Part shown: piece after piece, positions 2,614 to 13,077 of the stretch
Layout: the number at the start of each line of letters is the position of its first letter
Position numbering within the stretch: the stretch's first letter is position 1
Program-made: the position numbers and the translations under genes
The notes under the pieces: model-generated
Seen by the model: only the letters and a program-made list of their open reading frames with translations
Databases searched by the model: none
Told to the model about the DNA's origin: nothing
From: an uncultured Pseudomonadota bacterium
GTDB lineage: Bacteria; Pseudomonadota; Gammaproteobacteria; Methylococcales; Methylomonadaceae
Direction: 5' to 3'
Assembly: GCA_903875455.1 (NCBI GenBank)
Contig: CAIQWF010000025.1
Coordinates: forward strand, 1 to 38,084
Length of the DNA: 38,084 nucleotides

Positions 2614-3672
2614 TTAAAAAACGCTGTTCAGATTTTTCTGTTTCCCTTTGGCACAGATTTGTTCTATTAAAAACTGTGCTATCGCTTCCAGCGGCAAAAC
2701 TTTTGAAACGGCATTCAAGGCGATTGCCGCTGCCGGCATTCCAAAGACAATAGAGCTTGCTTCATCCTGGGCGATGGTTAAGCATTGCTGCTCAAACATC
2801 GCCTGCAACCCTTCTGCACCGTCACTGCCCATACCGCTTAAAATAATCCCGATACTTTGTTTGGGGCAAATTGCGGCCGCCGAATTGAACAACGCTGTCA
2901 CTGAGGGTCTGAAACTTTTAACCGGTTCAGTGCGGGACAAAAAAATTTCATATTGATTGCCATTTTTGTTCACCAGGCAGTGGCAATTATCGGGTGCTAA
3001 ATAAACCGTACCTTTTTGCAACGGTTCATTGTTAAGCGCGATTTTGACTTTTAAAGCGGTATTATCATTAAGCCAGCTTGCCAGGCCGTCTATAAATCCG
3101 GTGGAAATATGCTGAACCACGACAATTGGCAACGGGAACGATTTAGGCAATTCAGATAAAATCTGCTTTAAGGCCTGTGGACCACCGGTGGAGCAGCCTA
3201 TTGCCAGCAGTTTATAATCATCCGGCTGCGGTATAGATACTGTGGCAACATAGGGAAAAATACGCCGTTTTACCAGCTTGACTTCAGCCATGGCCCGAAT
3301 GGTGGCAACAATTTCAGCCTGAATCGATTCAAAATCAGGGTCATTAAAACTACAGGGTTTTTCCAGCACCGCCAAAGCACCATGATCTATCGCATTAAAG
3401 CTGATTTGCAATTCATCATCGACATTGGAGCTAATGACCACAATCGGTTTGGGGCGAGTTGCCATAATCTGCGCAATCGCGGTCAAGCCATCCATTACCG
3501 GCATCCGAATATCCATGGTAATTAAATCTGGATTCAAGGTTTGCGCCATTTCAATCGCTTCCTGACCGGTTTTGGCCCGGCCTATCACCTGCAAATCAGC
3601 GGTATTCTGGATAATGCTGGTCAGCAGGAATGCAATAACTTCCGAGTCTTCAACAATTAATACCCGAATCAT
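2614..3672 (-). CDS. cheB: CheB-type protein-glutamate methylesterase (WspF-like)
   Basis: Response-regulator methylesterase that removes methyl groups from chemoreceptor glutamates and so sets adaptation. The receiver domain (about 1-120) has the acidic pair ED at 8-9, phospho-acceptor D54 (TMDIRMP) and conserved K105. After a linker comes the CheB esterase domain (about 155-340), with the catalytic triad visible as S161 in STGG, H188 in VVQH and D284 in GMGSDGAEG. The 352-residue length is normal. It lies 10 bp after the CheA-REC gene and ends the cluster, the position of WspF in Pseudomonas. In Wsp systems this protein restrains output, so with a broken CheA it may have no phosphate donor here. 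Confidence 0.93.
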   Translation of the reverse strand: MIRVLIVEDSEVIAFLLTSIIQNTADLQVIGRAKTGQEAIEMAQTLNPDLITMDIRMPVMDGLTAIAQIMATRPKPIVVISSNVDDELQISFNAIDHGALAVLEKPCSFNDPDFESIQAEIVATIRAMAEVKLVKRRIFPYVATVSIPQPDDYKLLAIGCSTGGPQALKQILSELPKSFPLPIVVVQHISTGFIDGLASWLNDNTALKVKIALNNEPLQKGTVYLAPDNCHCLVNKNGNQYEIFLSRTEPVKSFRPSVTALFNSAAAICPKQSIGIILSGMGSDGAEGLQAMFEQQCLTIAQDEASSIVFGMPAAAIALNAVSKVLPLEAIAQFLIEQICAKGKQKNLNSVF

Positions 3673-3682
3673 GGCTAATTCT

Positions 3683-5971
3683 CTAAAGTAACTGGTTGAT
3701 AATGGTCAATAACAGCTGGCTGTCAAAAGAGTCTTTGCTGATGTAAGCATCCGCGCCGACTTGCACACCCCGGCGCTTATCCTGCTCACTGTTCAGAGAG
3801 CTGACAATGATGGTGGGAATGTCACGGGTGCTGGGAGAGTTTTTGATTTTTTCCACCAGTTCAAAGCCGTTCAGCAGCGGCATTTCCACGTCGGTGATAA
3901 TTAGCTGGTAATGCGGATTTTTTTGCAATTCCTGCCAGGCTTGCAAGCCGTTCATCATTGCGGTGACGACAAAGCCATGCTGCTCCAGAATATTCTTTTC
4001 CAAAGTGCGGGAAGTGGCCGAATCATCAATGACCAGAATTTTTTGTGCTGTCACAGGCTCAGATGTGATTGACTCAGGATTGATTAGCGACTGCTGACTG
4101 ACAAACGCGGCGGCAATCAAATCTCCGGCATGTAATACCGGCACCAGTTCGCCGCTGCCTAAAACGGCCATTCCCACGGCAAAGGGCACGCTTAATAGCG
4201 GATAGGAAAACGGTTTGATAATCAAATCCTGTTCACCGATGATGTGATCGACAATCACGGCAATCTTTCGTTCACCATCGGTAATCAGTGCGGTAGCCAA
4301 GGTTTTTTTCTGGTGCGGAATAGCTTCTGCAAGGCCTAACAGCTGCGACAGATAATAAATGCTGATCGGCTGGGCGTCGGCAGTTGGCAATAAGTTTTTA
4401 CCATTTAAAAAAAGCAGGGTTTCGCTGTCAACGTCCATAACCCGCTCGATGTTGTAACCTTGCAAGGCGAATTTTTTGCCGCTGGCCTGAATCAAGATTC
4501 CAGATTCACTGGTTAGCGCAGCCGGCAAGGTTAAGGTAAATTCGGTGCCGTGTTTAAAAACGGTTTTGACGCTGATTGCGCCTTTGATTTTGCGTAAATT
4601 GGTTCTGACCACATCCAGTCCGACCCCGCGTCCTGAAGTTTCGGTCAGAATCGGCGCCATCGAAAAGCCGGATTTAAAAATAAAATCCAGCGCCGCTTCA
4701 TTGCTCAATGAACTGGCTTCGCTGGCAGACAGCAGTTGCAGCTTAACAATTTTTTGCCGCAGCGCATTCAAATCAATGCCGCTGCCGTCATCAGACAGGG
4801 AAATCATAATATTTGCCGCCACTTTGCTGATTTTCAAACTCAGTAAGGCTTGTTCCGGCTTGCCTTGTGTCAGCCGTTACTGTGGCAATTCGATGCCGTG
4901 ATCGATGGCATTGTTAATTAAATGAACCAGCGGGGCGTGCAGGACTTTGTAAAAATTGCGGTCGATTTTGATTTCTTCGCCTTCAATCACAAACTGGAGC
5001 TTTTTTTGCTGCTGCTGCGACAGGTCACGGACAATCCGCTGCAAAGGCGCTAATAGCAGCGCAAACGGCACCAGCCGCATGGCATTCACTGAAGCGGTTA
5101 GCGATTGCGAACTCTGCTGCAAGTGGTTATTAAGCTGCCTTAAGTTATTAAACGAGTTAATGGCATTGGTGGACAAATGCGTCAAATCAATCAGGGAATG
5201 GCTTAACTTTTCATCGCGCTTATTGCCAGACTGGTAGGAAACCTGTTCACTCAGGCTATTGCTTAATTGATCCAGACTGAAACACAGTTGCTGAAAATCC
5301 AGCAGATGCTTTTTCAGTTGCAGTCGGGCGGTCTGTATCTCATCAGCAATCAAAGAGAGTTGATTCACATCCTGGGCTAACACGGTGTAACTGGTTTGCC
5401 CAGGAGCCTCAGTACTTAACGCCACAGGTTCTTCCTGGGGAAGGAGGGGGGATTGGGGGGAGAGTGTGACGGTTAAAGAGGGCTGTTTTTCAATCGTAAC
5501 TGCCGTTTTTTTAGTAGAGGCTAAAGGTATGTTTAAAGTGTTTGGTTCAGAAAGCGGGGGAGAGGCGCTTTCTGTCTCGTTGCCCAGGCAGTCATCGAGT
5601 TTTTTCAAAAAAGCCTTGAAGGCTTGCAGGTCTGTTTCCGGGGTGTCAGCGAGTTGCCTGATTTTGTCTACTGCCTGCAATGCCGTATCAATCAACGTGC
5701 TGGAACAGGTTAACCGGCCTTTTTTCAGTAAGCTGAAAATTGATTCTAAACGATGGGTTATCTCGGCAATGCTATATTGGCTTACGCCTTTGGCCGCACC
5801 TTTTAAACTGTGAGCGGCACGAAAAATGTTCTCCAGCAGTTCCTGCTGCCGCTCGGCATTTGCAGTTTGTTCCAAAGCCAGCAAGCCATTGGTTAAGGTT
5901 TCCAGATGTTCGGCAAGCTCGGCTTTAAAAACCACCTGCAATTGCTGCATTAATTGAGGGCTGATTTCCAT
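3683..5971 (-). pseudogene. CheA-REC hybrid histidine kinase (WspE-like) with an in-frame stop
   Basis: Chemotaxis kinase fused to a receiver. From ATG 5971: HPt/P1 domain (about 1-110, phospho-His H54 in RAAHSLKGAA), a Pro/Ser-rich linker without an obvious P2, a P3 dimerisation coiled coil (about 195-305), then the HATPase domain, whose N-box (LINNAIDHGIE, 351-361) is followed by TAA at codon 365 (4877-4879). The frame stays open beyond the stop: RLTQGKPEQ, the G1 box DDGSGID (from codon 394), SGRGVGLDVV, a CheW-like P5 domain, and a receiver (about 644-762, D694 in ITDVEMP). Full length would be 762 codons, close to WspE. Since nothing is shifted, one C-to-T change (CAA to TAA) explains the break. 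A downstream TTG (4837) or ATG (4807) could start a C-terminal piece but lacks a good ribosome site. Either a real recent nonsense mutation or a base-call error. Confidence 0.9.
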
Positions 5972-6150: not shown

Positions 6151-7041
6151 TTAATGCAGGTTAGGCTCAAACAGCATGGACTGGTTTTTGCCGTTCTGTT
6201 TAGCCTGGTGCAAGGCTTTTTTGGCCTGGGCAATCAGCAGTTCTTTTGTATACGGCTGTTCCTCCTGTTTCGAGGAATAGTGGCTGATACCAAGACTGAT
6301 GGTTATTTCAATAGCCTGGTCTGCATATCTAATCGGTGTGTTTGCAACAAGAGCGCGGATAGCTTCTGCCAAAGCATAAGCCTGCTGTTTTCCGGTGTGA
6401 GGCGCAACAAGCGCGAAAATTTGCCCGGCATAACGGCATAAACAGTCTGCATCCCTAATGCGGTTTTTGATGGTTTTAACCAGCTGTAGCAGTGCGGTGT
6501 CACCAGCCAAGTCCCCGTGAAGGCCGTTGAACTCCCTGAATTTGTCAACATCAAACAGAATAAGTGCCATTTCAGTGTGGTAACGCCTGGAACAGATAAG
6601 CGCTTCTTCGATTTTTTCCAAAAGATAATGCTGGTTATATACCGGTAGCTGATCGTCCATTTGAGTCTGCCGATAAAGCTCATCATAGTAAGCCTGCTCC
6701 GGGCTGTCACAGGAAACAAACTTTAGTTTTACAGAACCAATCTTAATAATGTCCTGGTCTTGCAATGAGGTTTTTTCTATTTCAACTGAGTTTACCAAGG
6801 TGCCATTGGTGCTGTTTTTGTCAAAGATCAAAAACTCATGTTCATTAAAGCGCTGGATGTAAGCGTGCATTCTCGATACGCCACTTTCGTCCAGATGAAT
6901 GTCGACCTCTTTTTCCCGGCCGATAGTGACAATATCCTTATTCAGTAAAATTCTATTACCTGCACCCTCGCCATTTTGAACAAGCAAAAAAGCAGTCCAA
7001 ATCGAGATTTTAGCTGATTGATTATTGTTATTTTCTCTCAC
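6151..7041 (-). CDS. FHA domain - degenerate GGDEF protein
   Basis: 296 residues. The N-terminal FHA domain (about 20-108) has the phosphothreonine-binding marks GR (41-42), SRMH (56-59) and NSTNGT (76-81). A GGDEF-type domain follows (about 130-290) with a recognisable nucleotide-binding half (FDVDKFREFN, HGDLAGD). The catalytic GG[DE]EF signature reads AGQIF (205-209), so loss of diguanylate cyclase activity is expected. The inhibitory-site motif RxxD (R196-D199) sits at the standard five residues before it, so c-di-GMP may still bind. The start is GTG 7041, with GGAG 8 nt upstream. It takes the place of WspR but has no receiver domain, so the phosphorelay link may run through FHA binding instead. 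Whether it is a c-di-GMP receptor is inference. Confidence 0.88.
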   Translation of the reverse strand: MRENNNNQSAKISIWTAFLLVQNGEGAGNRILLNKDIVTIGREKEVDIHLDESGVSRMHAYIQRFNEHEFLIFDKNSTNGTLVNSVEIEKTSLQDQDIIKIGSVKLKFVSCDSPEQAYYDELYRQTQMDDQLPVYNQHYLLEKIEEALICSRRYHTEMALILFDVDKFREFNGLHGDLAGDTALLQLVKTIKNRIRDADCLCRYAGQIFALVAPHTGKQQAYALAEAIRALVANTPIRYADQAIEITISLGISHYSSKQEEQPYTKELLIAQAKKALHQAKQNGKNQSMLFEPNLH

Positions 7042-7158
7042 CCTTTATTCTCCAGGTATTTTATCCGGCCATTTTCACATTATTTTCTCTGTAGTTTCAA
7101 GCGCTTTGCCAGTCTTTAAAAAATGATAGCGTTTTCAGGAGTTTCTCGTGGCGATTTA

Positions 7159-8697
7159 TCAGTTTTTGTAAACACTGATGCTTTGCTGCAACTGCTTGGA
7201 AATCTCCGCCAAATCTGACGACACGGATTTACTTTGTTCCGCAGCTCCAACAAATTGCGCAGTGACTTTGTTGATTTCATTCATTGCGATGGCAACCTGG
7301 GAAATACCGGCGCCTTCCTGCCGTACCGCAGCGACAATCTGCTGGCTGGCGATGACCGATTCGTTAATCACTTTATTCAGCTTTTCCATAATCACGCCGG
7401 TATTTTTTACCAGCTCTTCGCCATTATCGACGCTTTTTGTGCCTTGTTCGGTTGCCATTACCGCCCGGTCTGTGGCCAGCTGAATATCACGCAGAATTTT
7501 ATGTACCTGCTCGGTGGACTGCTGCGACTGTTCGGCCAAATCACGCACTTCGGCGGCAACCACGGCAAAACCTTTGCCGGCATCTCCGGCTTTGGCCGCT
7601 TCAATCGAAGCATTCAAGGCCAGCATTTTCGACTGTTGGGTCAAATTGGCAATGACGGTGGTAATGTTGGCCACCAGCTGGGTTTTTTCGCTCAGCATCA
7701 GAATGGTTTTGGAAATGGTGTTGACCTGATCCCTGATTTCTCCCATGGAGCGGACAACCTGCTGTACTGCGATAATGCCGTGTTCACCTTCTTTGCGAAT
7801 ATTTTCCGCGACCTGTCCCAAAGCCTGGGCCTTGGTTTGGGTTTGCTGCGAGGTGGCCTTGATTTCCTCCAGCGTGGTGGTCGTTTCATTTACCGCCGAG
7901 GCTTGCTGGCTGGCACCGCTGGACTGGCTGGCAATGGTGCTGTTTAACCGGGTAATGGTTTCGGCAATATTTTGTCCAACATCAGTAATGTGACGGGTAA
8001 TCTGGCTTAAACCATTCACCATGCTGTTGATTTGCTCGCTCAGCGAAGACAGGTCATCATCAGCGGAAATCTCCAGCTGCTGGCTTAAATCGCCCTTGGA
8101 AACTTTGGCAATAAAGGCTTTATAAGTTTCGATTTTATCCTCTATTTCATGTTTGGACAGACTGACTTCCCGCACGTCTTCCAGTAAGGCGAAAGTATAG
8201 GTATCAATCGCCAGTTGCGCATCCATAAAAATAACCTTGTTAAATGCGCCCTGCAACGCCAGTATTTTCGCAGGGCTATACCAATATTTGCGCACGATAA
8301 TCGGGTTAATCAATTGCAGATAAATGCTATAGCCGCCTAAATACCAGCGCGGGGTTAAACCGATTTTTTTATGTACCACTCCGATTTTTAGCTGGTTTTC
8401 AAAATACTGGGCATCAAAGTTGCCATCAAAAATATCGAGTAAATAACGCTTTTGCGTCACTTTCAGACGGTCAATGTTTGAGCCGGCCTGGGCAATGATT
8501 CGGGTTAGTTCAGGATAACGACTGATATGGGTATAAAAATTATCCACAATCCAGTCGGCATGTTTTTCAATCACCGGTTTAAACTGGCGCAACAGTTTAC
8601 AGTCCGCTTCGGTCAAACCGATATAATCCAGGCGTGATGCCCGTTCTTCAACGTCAATTCGTATTATTTCTGCAAGTGATTCTTTTCTATTTAACAT
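7159..8697 (-). CDS. Globin-coupled methyl-accepting chemotaxis protein (HemAT-like, soluble)
   Basis: 512 residues with no membrane segment. The N-terminal protoglobin domain (about 1-180) shows the globin-sensor pattern GVVHKKIGLTPRWYLGGY, where H109 is the likely proximal haem ligand and Y55 a candidate distal residue. A HAMP-like segment (about 190-240) leads into a cytoplasmic signalling helix bundle, with the MCP hairpin tip around GFAVVAAEVRDLAEQS. Such proteins bind O2 (also CO or NO) at haem and signal to CheA through CheW. I start at ATG 8697 (MLNRKESLAE): a 25-residue upstream extension would overlap the CheW gene and has no globin match. GGAAA precedes this ATG, 19 bp after the upstream stop. 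It replaces the membrane receptor WspA of classical Wsp systems. Confidence 0.93.
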   Translation of the reverse strand: MLNRKESLAEIIRIDVEERASRLDYIGLTEADCKLLRQFKPVIEKHADWIVDNFYTHISRYPELTRIIAQAGSNIDRLKVTQKRYLLDIFDGNFDAQYFENQLKIGVVHKKIGLTPRWYLGGYSIYLQLINPIIVRKYWYSPAKILALQGAFNKVIFMDAQLAIDTYTFALLEDVREVSLSKHEIEDKIETYKAFIAKVSKGDLSQQLEISADDDLSSLSEQINSMVNGLSQITRHITDVGQNIAETITRLNSTIASQSSGASQQASAVNETTTTLEEIKATSQQTQTKAQALGQVAENIRKEGEHGIIAVQQVVRSMGEIRDQVNTISKTILMLSEKTQLVANITTVIANLTQQSKMLALNASIEAAKAGDAGKGFAVVAAEVRDLAEQSQQSTEQVHKILRDIQLATDRAVMATEQGTKSVDNGEELVKNTGVIMEKLNKVINESVIASQQIVAAVRQEGAGISQVAIAMNEINKVTAQFVGAAEQSKSVSSDLAEISKQLQQSISVYKN

Positions 8698-8716
8698 TCT
8701 GTTTCCACTAAACGCT

Positions 8717-9280
8717 TTATTGTGGTTGATGATTAATTTTAAGGGCGGGGTCGTTAAAAATGGCTTCCACATTCAAAAAAATAACCGAATAGTCCAGCAA
8801 ACCCAAAAAATAGGCACGGTTGAAGGTGAGCGGATTTTGCAATGAGGTTTTAAGTTGTGAAGGGCTATAACTGACAAAGTTGCACAATTCATTTACCAGC
8901 AAACCGATGGAGCGGCTCTGATGGGTCAGTACGATAATCCGGCTCTGTTCATTGCTGACAGTGGTTTGCTGGGTTGAAAGATAGTTGCCGTCCAAAACCG
9001 TTAAAATCATGCCTTTCCAGGGAATTACACCGCTGACAAAAGCCGGCAGCCAGGCTAGATTCACCAGATGCTGCGGATAAATAACTTCGTTCAGCAAAGA
9101 TTGTTCAATGCCGTACAGGGCGTTATGGTTCAGTTTGAATTGCAGATAATGCAGCTGTTTTTCTGCCCTTGGCCCGGAGCTTTGGTTTTCCGCCAGTTTT
9201 TCCGCCCGAGTGCGAAGCAGCTCCAGTTCCTGCGGCTCTTTGGGCATTAAATCCGCCGCTGTTATCACAGGTGTAGTCAC
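8717..9280 (-). CDS. CheW-like coupling protein (WspD-like)
   Basis: 187 residues. A ~45-residue N-terminal extension precedes one CheW fold (about 45-175: LQFKLNHNALYGIE, then PAFVSGVIPWKGMILTVLD, then RSIGLLVNEL). CheW proteins link receptors to CheA. The start is GTG 9280, overlapping the CheR stop by 4 nt (GTGA), with GGGAG 7 nt upstream. A downstream ATG at 9247 is less well placed. It is the second CheW of the cluster, between CheR-TPR and the receptor. The usual RG motif of the CheW core is poorly kept, which is common in WspD-like proteins. Confidence 0.88.
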   Translation of the reverse strand: MTTPVITAADLMPKEPQELELLRTRAEKLAENQSSGPRAEKQLHYLQFKLNHNALYGIEQSLLNEVIYPQHLVNLAWLPAFVSGVIPWKGMILTVLDGNYLSTQQTTVSNEQSRIIVLTHQSRSIGLLVNELCNFVSYSPSQLKTSLQNPLTFNRAYFLGLLDYSVIFLNVEAIFNDPALKINHQPQ

Positions 9281-10761
9281 TGTTTGACTCCCAAAACGGA
9301 CAATTCATTTTTAATTGCTTCGGCAAAACCTGAATAAGTTAAGGTGATGACGTTATGAACGGGCCTTTGTTTATCGCCCTGTTCGGCAAGATGCAGGGCA
9401 TTTTTAATCGCTTTTATCGCCTGCTTTTGCTGACCTTTGTAAAGCAAAACCTGCCCCAGCTGATAATGCGCTTCCATAAAATCATAGTTTAAAAAAATGG
9501 TTTGCCGGAAAGCTTTTTCCGCTTCGTCGTAAAGATTAAGCTGGAGCAGAATTAATCCGTACAGCAGATAACTGTGCGGGTCTAAATCATTCAGCTTGAT
9601 GCTTTCTTCACAAGCGATTTTGGCCTGATCCAGTAAGCCCAGATTCACCAAAGCTTTGGCCTTAAACTGGGCTAAATCAGGATTGGCCGGATTATTTATC
9701 AGCGCCTGTTCGGACAAAGCCAGCACTTCTTGCCATTGATTATTTGCTAAGGAAGCCAAGATGTTACTCCTTGCGACGGAAAAATCGGCTATTTGCCGGT
9801 TTTGAGGAGAAAGCGGCGGCGGTTGTTCGGCCGCCGGCAAAATAACCGGAGACTCAAGCGCCAGATGATTGTCGGTGGCGCTGTTAAAACCGGCATGTTC
9901 ATCAAGCCGTTCAAAATAAAAAACATCTTTGTGTTGTTTGGCGATTAACAGCGGCGTTGATAAGTTCAGCGGATCAGTGGCGGATAATAGCAGCAGCCCG
10001 CCCGGTCTTAATGCCTGGGCAAATCTAGCGCAGGTTTGTTCAACAATCTGCGGCTGAAGATAAATAAAGACATTGCGGCACAGAATCAAATCAAGATGGC
10101 AGGTTTGGTTCATCAAAGACGGGAAAATATCTTCAGCCAGATTCAGAAAAAAGAATTTTACCTGTTTTTTCAGCGCTTCATTTAACTGATAGCGGCCATT
10201 TTCCAGCGCAGTGAAATAGCTGCTGTTAGAAATTAAATCGTTGTTGCTGCGAATTTCCCATTGGCTATATTCGCCTTTCATCGCCCGTTGCAGCGAGTGA
10301 TGATTAATATCGCTGGCTATTAAATGCAGTTGCCAACTGGAAAAATCGCTTAATAATTCCTGCAACAAAATGGCGATGCTATAGATTTCCTGTCCGGTTG
10401 CGCAACCGGCACTCCAAATCCTGATATGTTTGTCACTCTGTGCTCTTTTTTGGGCAATCAGTCTGGGTAAAAAATCATTTTTTAAAAAATCATGCTGATT
10501 TTCATCCCGAAAAAAATAGCTTTCATCAACGGTAATATGTTGCAGCAACAGCCGCCGTTCAGGGCAAAGGGGATCGGCTTTTAATTTGGCCAGCAACTGC
10601 CCGGGGGCAATTTCTGCAAACGCCTGGCAGGTTTTGTAAATCGCCTGTTTAAATCTGTGCTCCTGATGCGCATAAAGATGTAAACCGTAGTCGGTTGCCA
10701 GAAACTGTTTAAAATCGGCGGCAAGCTCGGCAGTCAAAAAGCTATTCATTTCAGCTGTCAT
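9277..10761 (-). CDS. CheR-type receptor methyltransferase with C-terminal TPRs (WspC-like)
   Basis: SAM-dependent methyltransferase for chemoreceptor glutamates. The CheR all-alpha N-domain (about 10-75) ends in TVDESYFFRD, the family's T-x-E-x-Y-F-F-R signature. The catalytic domain contains the SAM loop SAGCATGQE (about 117-125) and DLILCRNVFIYL. From about residue 345 to 470 there are at least three tetratricopeptide repeats (for example PHSYLLYGLILLQLNLYDEA), as in WspC. I chose ATG 10761, which overlaps the CheW gene by 11 nt and has GAAGAAG upstream. TTG 10776 and ATG 10749 are alternatives. The TPRs probably bind partner proteins. Confidence 0.92.
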   Translation of the reverse strand: MTAEMNSFLTAELAADFKQFLATDYGLHLYAHQEHRFKQAIYKTCQAFAEIAPGQLLAKLKADPLCPERRLLLQHITVDESYFFRDENQHDFLKNDFLPRLIAQKRAQSDKHIRIWSAGCATGQEIYSIAILLQELLSDFSSWQLHLIASDINHHSLQRAMKGEYSQWEIRSNNDLISNSSYFTALENGRYQLNEALKKQVKFFFLNLAEDIFPSLMNQTCHLDLILCRNVFIYLQPQIVEQTCARFAQALRPGGLLLLSATDPLNLSTPLLIAKQHKDVFYFERLDEHAGFNSATDNHLALESPVILPAAEQPPPLSPQNRQIADFSVARSNILASLANNQWQEVLALSEQALINNPANPDLAQFKAKALVNLGLLDQAKIACEESIKLNDLDPHSYLLYGLILLQLNLYDEAEKAFRQTIFLNYDFMEAHYQLGQVLLYKGQQKQAIKAIKNALHLAEQGDKQRPVHNVITLTYSGFAEAIKNELSVLGVKQ

Positions 10762-11302
10762 GGGCTTCTTCGTCAAAATTAAAAAGATTTTGCCGGATCA
10801 TGTTATCAATTTCATCCGGCGACACGCTGTAAAGCTGGGTGAGACTGCTGTTCAGCAGGGCATCGGTGTTTAATAAAAAACAAACCTGTTGCTGTTGCTG
10901 ATAAACACTGGAAAAAGGTAGAGCTTTTCCTGAAAACTGTGGCGCTAAATGCAGCTGATTGTGGCTGAGCTCGATGACATTGCCGACCGAGCTGACAATC
11001 AGGCCCAGAAAAGCTTCATTTTCCAGGGTATTGCATAACACCACCTGGGTGTTGCAGCTGTAGCCTGTGGCTGGTTGTTGCCCTAAACGCAAACTCAAAT
11101 CAAGCACCGGCACAAGGTTGCCATGATAATTGAACACGCCTGCCAGATAGGGCGGAGTTTTCGGCACTGCGGTTAATGCCATCAAGGAAAAAATTTTATT
11201 CACCTGCTGCAAGGGAACACTACAGCAAATCTCCTGTGCCTGTAGTTGTAAATACTGGTTTTTTTGCCGGAAATGCTGCTGAAAACGGTTAAAAAGGGTC
11301 AT
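10751..11302 (-). CDS. CheW-like coupling protein (WspB-like)
   Basis: 183 residues forming one CheW domain (about 18-160): YLQLQAQEICCSVPLQQVNKIFSL, AVPKTPPYLAGVFNYHGNLVPVLDLS and EAFLGLIVSSVGNVIEL match the order of conserved CheW blocks. It couples receptor to kinase. The ATG overlaps the stop of the upstream kinase gene by 1 nt (TAATG) and the end overlaps CheR, so translation is probably coupled. It has the gene position of WspB. Confidence 0.9.
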   Translation of the reverse strand: MTLFNRFQQHFRQKNQYLQLQAQEICCSVPLQQVNKIFSLMALTAVPKTPPYLAGVFNYHGNLVPVLDLSLRLGQQPATGYSCNTQVVLCNTLENEAFLGLIVSSVGNVIELSHNQLHLAPQFSGKALPFSSVYQQQQQVCFLLNTDALLNSSLTQLYSVSPDEIDNMIRQNLFNFDEEAHDS

Positions 11303-13077
11303 TAATCGTCGTCCGTGAGCAATTGCAGGTCAATCCAGAAAGACGAGCCTTTTCCCAAACAGCTGCTGACGCCGATTTTGCCGCCCATTGCCTCAATCAG
11401 TTGTTTGGTAATCGCCAGACCAATGCCGGTACCTTGAACGTGACTGGAGCTTTTAGCCCTGGAAAAGGGTTGGAAAATAGTTTCCAGGTCTTGTTCGCTG
11501 ATGCCCAGGCCGGTATCAATGACGCTAATCCGCAAATAAGCATTATCAAATTTTTCACATTTTAAAACCACGGAGCCTTGCTTGTGATTATATTTAATCG
11601 CATTTGACAGCAGGTTTAGCAATATCTGCTTGATGCGTTTTACATCGATATTGACAAATACCGGCTCTTCATAAGAAAAATTAACCTCGTAGCGGAAATC
11701 AATCTGATGCTGGTTTGCCAAAATCTGGGTCATTTTCTGGCAGGCCGGCAAAAACACGACCGGGGAGGTTTTTTCCATTTCCATATTCAGTTTGCCAGAC
11801 TCAATCGCGGCCAGATCTAAAATTTCATTGACCAAATCCAGCAGGTGTTCACCGGCATGATAGATTTCGCGGACTGAATCGGCGTGATCTGCGGATAATG
11901 GATTGTCGGTGTCGGAGCGCAACAACTGACTGAAGCCCAAAATAGCGTTGAGCGGGGTTCTAAGTTCATGGCTCATGGAGGACAAAAAGTCGGACTTGGC
12001 TTTGTTGGCGCTGTCGGCCTGTTCCTTTGAGAACTTTAAATATTTTTCCGCAATTTTGCGGTCGGTAATGTCGCGGATAATCCCGACCGAGCCGATAAAG
12101 AGGTCTTTGTTGTTTTGAGAGATCTGGTACATGCCGGCACTGCTGACTTCCACGTCCAGATAAGGGTGTTCCAGCGATTCCATGACGCCGTCTACCACGG
12201 CATCGGAATCATTAACTTTTAAGGCGATTTCCAGACCGGTGGTTCTGCGCTCTCCTACCCGACGTTCATCGAACAGCTTGGGTTGTACAGGTTGCACCGT
12301 GTTGCTGATGGTAGGCAATATTTTTTTCCGGCTGATCTGGTCAACCTGATGCGGGGCAATCAGACAGCTGAAATGTTTGCCGACCAGGTCTTCAGGTTTG
12401 TAGCCAAGTTTGCGGATGCTCTGGTTGATAAAGACGATATAGCCGTTTTCATCAATCCGGTAAATAATGTCAGGGGCGGTTTCAACCAGCGACCTGAAGC
12501 GCATTTCAGATTCTTCTAGCTCTTTGGTTCTTTGCTCCAGCTGGTCATTTAAAAGTCGCAGCTTTGCCTGTATGTCAAGCAGCTGCTGATTACGATGAAT
12601 CACGGTTTCGTAAGTAGAGAGCAGGAAACACAAAATTTGCCGCCGGTTTGAGCGAATCGGGTGCGCTTCACCATCAATCAGCACGGACAAAGGTTCTTGG
12701 GTTTCTTCGGGAGTGTTGGAGAGCAGAAAATGAATGCTGGTGACCAGTTCTTCAGGATCGAAAGGCTTGATGATGTAAGAGTCAGCCAAAGATTCCAGCC
12801 CCATAATAATGTCCTTGGTTTCGGACAGGTTTGACAGCAGAATCACCGGAATGCGTTTTAATACAAAGTCATTTTTGATCGACCAGGCCACTTCATAGCC
12901 GTTTACATCGGGCATTTTGATGTCGGTGATAATCAGGTCAGGATTGCATTGCTTGGCGTAAGCTATTCCGTTGCGGCCACTGTCAGCACAAATGACTTCA
13001 AAACCTGCATCTTCCAAAGTCGATTTTAAAAGCAGTTCCTGTGTTTTACTGTCTTCAACAATCAGAATTCTTGTCAT
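11302..13077 (-). CDS. REC-PAS-histidine kinase
   Basis: 591 residues. Receiver domain (1-120, D52 in ITDIKMP, K104), a spacer with a coiled coil (about 160-190), PAS plus PAC (about 190-340, ending in SVGIIRDITDRK), HisKA dimerisation domain (H370 in SMSHELRTPLNA) and HATPase domain (N492 in LLSNAIKYN, DTGLGI 521-526, GTGIGLAI about 549-556). No membrane helix, so a cytoplasmic hybrid kinase. It is the first gene of the cluster and overlaps the next by 1 nt. It is not part of the canonical Wsp set. It could receive phosphate from the CheA-REC hybrid or feed an unlinked regulator, which the sequence does not settle. Confidence 0.93.
   Translation of the reverse strand: MTRILIVEDSKTQELLLKSTLEDAGFEVICADSGRNGIAYAKQCNPDLIITDIKMPDVNGYEVAWSIKNDFVLKRIPVILLSNLSETKDIIMGLESLADSYIIKPFDPEELVTSIHFLLSNTPEETQEPLSVLIDGEAHPIRSNRRQILCFLLSTYETVIHRNQQLLDIQAKLRLLNDQLEQRTKELEESEMRFRSLVETAPDIIYRIDENGYIVFINQSIRKLGYKPEDLVGKHFSCLIAPHQVDQISRKKILPTISNTVQPVQPKLFDERRVGERRTTGLEIALKVNDSDAVVDGVMESLEHPYLDVEVSSAGMYQISQNNKDLFIGSVGIIRDITDRKIAEKYLKFSKEQADSANKAKSDFLSSMSHELRTPLNAILGFSQLLRSDTDNPLSADHADSVREIYHAGEHLLDLVNEILDLAAIESGKLNMEMEKTSPVVFLPACQKMTQILANQHQIDFRYEVNFSYEEPVFVNIDVKRIKQILLNLLSNAIKYNHKQGSVVLKCEKFDNAYLRISVIDTGLGISEQDLETIFQPFSRAKSSSHVQGTGIGLAITKQLIEAMGGKIGVSSCLGKGSSFWIDLQLLTDDD

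Follow-up and report, generated by a model that had tools for sequence, protein, structure and literature searches.

The Wsp system of Pseudomonas is the textbook surface-sensing route to cyclic dimeric guanosine monophosphate (c-di-GMP). To our knowledge, the signal sensed by its receptor WspA is not settled. In Burkholderia, the REC-kinase WspH is encoded 5' of the wsp operon and was found experimentally to replace WspR, with no change in c-di-GMP (PMC8552884). Phosphorylation of the REC domain of CheS3 by the CheA-REC hybrid CheA3 has likewise been established by experiment in Rhodospirillum centenum (PMC3868531). We analysed a 38,084-nucleotide stretch of DNA from an uncultured methane-oxidising gammaproteobacterium of the order Methylococcales (CAIQWF010000025.1, hereafter the window), one of the 265 contigs of a 3.49-Mb draft genome that is 94% complete. 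It carries a Wsp-like chemosensory cluster with a soluble protoglobin-methyl-accepting chemotaxis protein (MCP) as receptor. We consider it rather likely that this cluster belongs to a gas-sensing lineage of Wsp-like pathways of the ACF (alternative cellular functions) class, with a diatomic gas, most likely O2, as input and an exchangeable output module. On balance, we also favour the view that this Wsp-type lineage is distinct and undescribed, occurs in no fewer than seven families of Pseudomonadota, takes O2 and not surface contact as its input through the soluble protoglobin, and uses diguanylate cyclases or a WspH/CheS3-like kinase as output.

The receptor gene (7159..8697, minus strand) encodes a protoglobin-HAMP-like-MCP protein of 512 residues. 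Its start was assigned to the ATG at 8697 because relatives align from there, and not to position 8772, where the listed 537-residue open reading frame (ORF), which overlaps cheW2, begins. A soluble globin receptor had been proposed in the original prediction, and strong Pfam matches to Protoglobin (E = 4.8e-43) and MCPsignal (E = 2.1e-33) bear this out. The HAMP domain also expected there was recovered in part: the window receptor scores 23.7 bits, just below the cut-off of 25, while two relatives exceed it. H109, put forward as candidate haem ligand, is correctly numbered from the ATG at 8697 and aligns with His123 of Bacillus subtilis HemAT, as do Y55 with Tyr70 and T81 with Thr95; these HemAT residues have been reviewed as the proximal ligand and distal network (PMC13401364). 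HemAT is the closest solved structure to the globin domain, whose predicted fold superimposes on HemAT structures with a TM-score of 0.86 (target length) and a root-mean-square deviation of 1.5 Å over 148 columns. This comparison used the globin part alone of an AlphaFold model of the whole receptor, which was built from three sequences and has a mean pLDDT of 58, poor outside the globin. No transmembrane-like segment was detected in the window receptor (maximum 19-residue Kyte-Doolittle hydropathy 1.13). The protein thus shows the traits of a globin-coupled MCP of the HemAT type, namely a Protoglobin domain with its proximal histidine, an MCP domain and no transmembrane segment. Alignment with Escherichia coli Tsr revealed about 14 additional residues per arm of the signalling region; reading this alignment, rather than making a formal class call, we would place the signalling domain at about class 40H.

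In order to determine how widely this organization is shared, we searched other genomes for the receptor. When genome contigs were scanned with the globin alignment, no more than four loci emerged, and direct genome search recovered more. Counting the window, 16 full-length receptors were found in seven families of Pseudomonadota. They include those of two other Methylococcaceae metagenome-assembled genomes, gammaproteobacterial methanotrophs that hold the nearest clusters (L034 and L035); class- and phylum-level searches added six further families with relatives 43-54% identical. The order cheW-cheR-cheW-globinMCP-cheA-cheB is conserved at all 16 loci, as far as the contigs reach, in agreement with the synteny expected from the original prediction; one locus (L143) has an extra receptor gene within an otherwise identical core. 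Equivalents of His123 and Tyr70 are kept in every receptor. All 16 are predicted to be soluble: no transmembrane-like stretch was seen, the 19-residue hydropathy peaking at 1.23 or less, compared with 2.18-2.79 in eight membrane-type receptors from similar clusters, each of which does have such a stretch. At L143 (8719-12615), the soluble globin receptor lies beside a 733-residue membrane receptor and a leading REC-PAS-kinase-REC, giving two inputs to one CheA. It is not generally the case that a globin receptor lies in a dedicated Che cluster, since a plasmid search returned two alphaproteobacterial plasmids with annotated globin-MCPs, about 30% identical overall, that have no che genes alongside. 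The same search returned a Legionella anisa membrane MCP whose signalling half is 45% identical; it was discarded, as no che cluster lies beside it.

The ORF list and Pfam define eight genes on the minus strand of the window, running from 13077 to 2614. The operon is led by a REC-PAS-HisKA-HATPase hybrid kinase (11302..13077), at the place where the original prediction had put a REC-PAS-kinase. It is followed by a CheW (10751..11302; E = 1.7e-22) in a WspB-like position that relatives share, a WspC-like CheR methyltransferase with C-terminal TPRs (9277..10776; CheR E = 3.3e-41, plus TPR models) and a second CheW (8717..9280; E = 7.8e-14) in a WspD-like position. Downstream of the receptor come an FHA-GGDEF gene (6151..7041), a WspE-like CheA-REC (3683..5971), which combines Hpt, ATPase, CheW-like and REC domains and contains an in-frame TAA, and a WspF-like CheB with REC and methylesterase domains (2614..3672; CheB_methylest E = 3.2e-61, Response_reg E = 3.1e-21, NF009206 above cut-off). 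Every part that had been named is therefore present by Pfam, including the Wsp core of two cheW, cheR-TPR, cheA-REC and cheB. CheA and CheB fall outside the span first assigned to the system (6151-13077), and the gene order, claimed to match Wsp, is B-C-D-A-E-F versus A-B-C-D-E-F-R. A WspA-type membrane receptor with a periplasmic four-helix bundle (4HB) as first gene is not found in the window, the protoglobin receptor being the fifth gene, and no REC-GGDEF output of the WspR kind was found there. The Wsp/ACF-like character of the gene set is supported by CheR-TPR, CheA with C-terminal REC, a multidomain regulator and the lack of flagellar partners, Pfam detecting neither cheY nor cheZ in the cluster. 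Overall, the observation is confirmed and the earlier interpretation partly supported; it had mentioned neither the CheA stop nor the FHA-GGDEF gene. Adjacent genes overlap or lie a few tens of bases apart. Spacing is wider only at the FHA-GGDEF gene, which occupies a receptor-to-CheA gap of 1187 bp, compared with -17 to 237 bp in relatives. Promoter and terminator scans gave chance-level results only.

Two kinds of output accompany this conserved core. The Methylococcaceae clusters have the REC-PAS-kinase as first gene instead of a c-di-GMP enzyme. Full-length orthologues of the window kinase are 74% and 60% identical in L034 and L035, and 47-52% identical in three other clusters, one with a globin receptor (L143) and two with membrane receptors (L148 and L149). 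The last three share with the window kinase an unusual PAS-region insertion and have an extra C-terminal REC. The REC aspartate and the HisKA motif with its histidine are conserved in all five, so that a REC-PAS-histidine kinase of the WspH/CheS3 type is encoded with the cluster. By analogy with these two proteins, this kinase is likely the output of the window system. In relatives, the signal for c-di-GMP is stronger: a GGDEF or EAL gene lies inside the cluster or within 5 kb in 10 of the 16 clusters, against about one expected, a rough yardstick taken from the approximately 34 GGDEF candidates of the window's own genome. Corrected for relatedness, this amounts to five of the seven families, one of them solely through the window's degenerate insertion. 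REC-linked GGDEF proteins occur in relatives only (L101, L144, L145, L139 and L140); in the first three, a REC-REC-GGDEF gene with an intact GGEEF motif follows cheB by about 60 bp. The c-di-GMP link originally proposed thus holds for the relatives and is weak here, where the sole local GGDEF is a degenerate insertion. Other arrangements were also seen. After cheB, L102 (3589-6004) and L104 (3560-5500) encode a CheY-like REC, a CheC/CheX-like phosphatase and a PAS-GGDEF cyclase, with a globin receptor in one and a PAS receptor in the other. At L103 (4807-6123), a REC-adenylate/guanylate cyclase (Guanylate_cyc) adjoins cheB, a third kind of second-messenger output.

The FHA-GGDEF gene is an insertion: it is missing at this place in relatives, including both nearest clusters, and its best matches are 32% identical among 61 genomes of the family and 35% among 369 of the class. 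We detected no repeats around it and no sharp break in composition. The protein does not have the GG(D/E)EF motif of an active diguanylate cyclase: its A-site reads AGQIF and lacks the catalytic acidic residue, which ten homologues keep as GG(E/D)EF, while its I-site RxxD is retained as RDAD. Pfam found no REC domain in it. It was consequently rejected as a WspR-like output and is probably not an active cyclase. With its phosphothreonine-binding domain and RDAD motif, it may instead be a c-di-GMP receptor.

The in-frame TAA in cheA (4877-4879) is codon 365 and falls inside the ATPase region, which reads ...GIELPQ-stop-RLTQGKP...; the frame is open on both sides, 762 codons otherwise, and no stop interrupts the proteins of the two nearest relatives, which have 762 and 760 residues. 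A split but functional CheA was ruled out since the stop falls within the ATPase domain. This premature stop probably disables the pathway and leaves the window copy non-functional, unless it is an assembly error. It is a lone lesion, and a consensus error of the draft assembly is possible; the stop thus reflects either a recent loss of the pathway in this lineage or such an error.

A CheA tree places the 15 globin clusters together in a single clade (support 96/97). Five membrane-receptor clusters are nested within it, so the globin clusters are not strictly monophyletic, and this nesting suggests one ancestral globin cluster whose input was exchanged later, the alternative being repeated gain. 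Four clusters, L105-L108, lie outside the clade; two of them, L105 and L106, have 4HB receptors. The globin-domain tree is compatible with a single origin and with several.

From the domains and gene order we infer a signalling direction, phosphotransfer partners and a phenotype. O2 or another diatomic gas would bind haem in the protoglobin domain, and the HAMP-like linker would relay the resulting change to the MCP hairpin. This hairpin and the two CheW proteins would together set the activity of CheA-REC. CheR-TPR and CheB would adapt the receptor. Phosphate from CheA would pass to its own REC and to CheB. In Methylococcaceae it would also reach the REC at the N terminus of the leading REC-PAS-kinase, and the kinase activity of this protein would form the output, on the model of WspH or CheS3. 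Relatives would use a REC-linked diguanylate cyclase or other c-di-GMP enzyme instead, and because of such outputs the family may tie gas level to a sessile or surface-associated way of life and not to flagella. If so, these clusters form a sister lineage of Wsp that lacks a membrane segment and has a defined haem input that can be read by spectroscopy, in which a Wsp-type core could be studied with a known ligand. In this lineage, a gas would act on c-di-GMP or on a hybrid kinase by way of a receptor array that adapts. Methanotrophs live where methane and oxygen meet, and for them the pathway is a candidate for switching between a sessile and a free existence in response to O2.

Several points weigh against a gas-sensing, c-di-GMP-linked lineage represented by this locus. 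Haem and gas binding by the receptor is itself inferred from sequence. The Thr95 equivalent is threonine in only seven of the 16 receptors, including that of the window, and Ala, Val or Lys in the other nine. No c-di-GMP gene was found near the L034 or L035 clusters, the GGDEF domain in the window is degenerate, and its CheA is interrupted. The window CheA groups with other Wsp-like clusters in a tree built without named WspE or ACF references, which makes the class assignment informal. Finally, a flagellar system can receive its input from orphan receptors of the HemAT type. A search for flagellin, positive in four control genomes, found none in the draft genome of the window, and flagellin is likely absent from it. 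The cluster also has neither the cheY nor the cheZ that an ordinary flagellar (F class) chemotaxis system would be expected to have, and flagellar aerotaxis was set aside. More broadly, it is very unlikely that a HemAT-like receptor here feeds ordinary aerotaxis through flagella or type IV pili: HemAT is the closest structure and a Pil-Chp cluster encoding a 2044-residue ChpA is present in the genome, but the receptor comes with a dedicated CheA/CheW/CheR/CheB set bearing CheR-TPR and CheA-REC, and the two plasmid globin-MCPs, distant in sequence, have no such set.

The ligand could also be NO or CO, or the protein a redox sensor. Globin-coupled sensors take several ligands, and the variable Thr95 position fits such a choice; this is nonetheless unlikely in view of the invariant Tyr70 equivalent, the threonine of the window copy and the aerotaxis mediated by characterised globin-MCPs (PMC13401364). 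O2 is the most likely ligand. It is highly improbable that the window's genome has a functional c-di-GMP pathway with FHA-GGDEF as its WspR equivalent. The gene does lie inside the cluster and shares its strand, nine of the 15 other clusters have c-di-GMP genes next to them, and the retained I-site makes c-di-GMP binding possible; against this, there is no REC to accept phosphate, the A-site has decayed, both nearest clusters lack the gene and the window CheA is broken. The chance that the locus is a decaying relic, intact in relatives and lost here through the CheA stop and the degenerate inserted gene, is a little short of even. The two congeners searched have no full-length receptor relative, which agrees with loss. 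However, every other frame of the cluster is intact and CheA is open on either side of the stop, so that any loss must be recent, and a single-base error in the metagenome assembly would look identical. A relic at this locus is compatible with the gas-sensing Wsp-like lineage that we favour for the family.

Other sensory genes were noted in the same genome. A second Che cluster (L157, 3429-15095) encodes a REC-containing protein of 769 residues, two CheB-like proteins, a 1061-residue MCP, a CheW, a CheY-like protein and a 997-residue CheA. At L159 (652-3399), a globin-STAS gene (RsbR-like, of the stressosome type), with close homologues in several Methylococcaceae, precedes small RsbS/RsbT-like genes. 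A globin anti-anti-sigma factor of solved structure (7o0i) was the second globin match in the PDB.

The original prediction knew of no described system with this arrangement. In our searches of the open-access literature, no Wsp/ACF operon containing a protoglobin-MCP came to light, although an earlier account in subscription papers is possible, and a survey of Wsp evolution does not mention a globin (PMC8552884); the arrangement, present in at least seven bacterial families, thus seems undescribed. The nearest match is cluster Cc-5 of Corallococcus coralloides (PMC6194562), where a cytoplasmic globin MCP has a dedicated CheA-CheW-CheB-CheR cluster that lacks CheY. It differs in having PAS and a globin of the Bac_globin family, a single CheW, another order and ABC1/ABM genes, and comes from one species. 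Halomonas cluster 2 (PMC5907407) is Wsp-like, with a 40H receptor, CheR-TPR, CheA-REC and a REC-linked diguanylate cyclase; it differs in its order, an extra CheY-like protein and a third CheW, and no globin is mentioned. HemAT-type chemoreceptors are also soluble Protoglobin-MCPs with proximal His and distal Tyr, but feed the flagellar CheA, whereas the window receptor sits in a dedicated ACF-like cluster. R. centenum Che3 (PMC3868531) shares the CheA-REC hybrid, REC-PAS histidine kinase, two CheW, MCP, CheR and CheB; its CheS3 has two RECs and an HWE kinase, CheY3 lies in the cluster and the receptor is not reported as a globin. The Burkholderia variant (PMC8552884) likewise has a hybrid REC-kinase, encoded 5' of the operon, in place of WspR, but keeps the membrane WspA, and it is the kinase described here that has a PAS domain. 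With the Wsp system of Pseudomonas (WspA-F and WspR), the cluster has in common two CheW, CheR-TPR, CheA-REC, CheB, one dedicated receptor, the lack of CheY and, in several relatives, a c-di-GMP output. It departs from Wsp in having a hybrid kinase where WspR would be, a B-C-D-A-E-F order and a soluble globin input in place of the membrane 4HB receptor.

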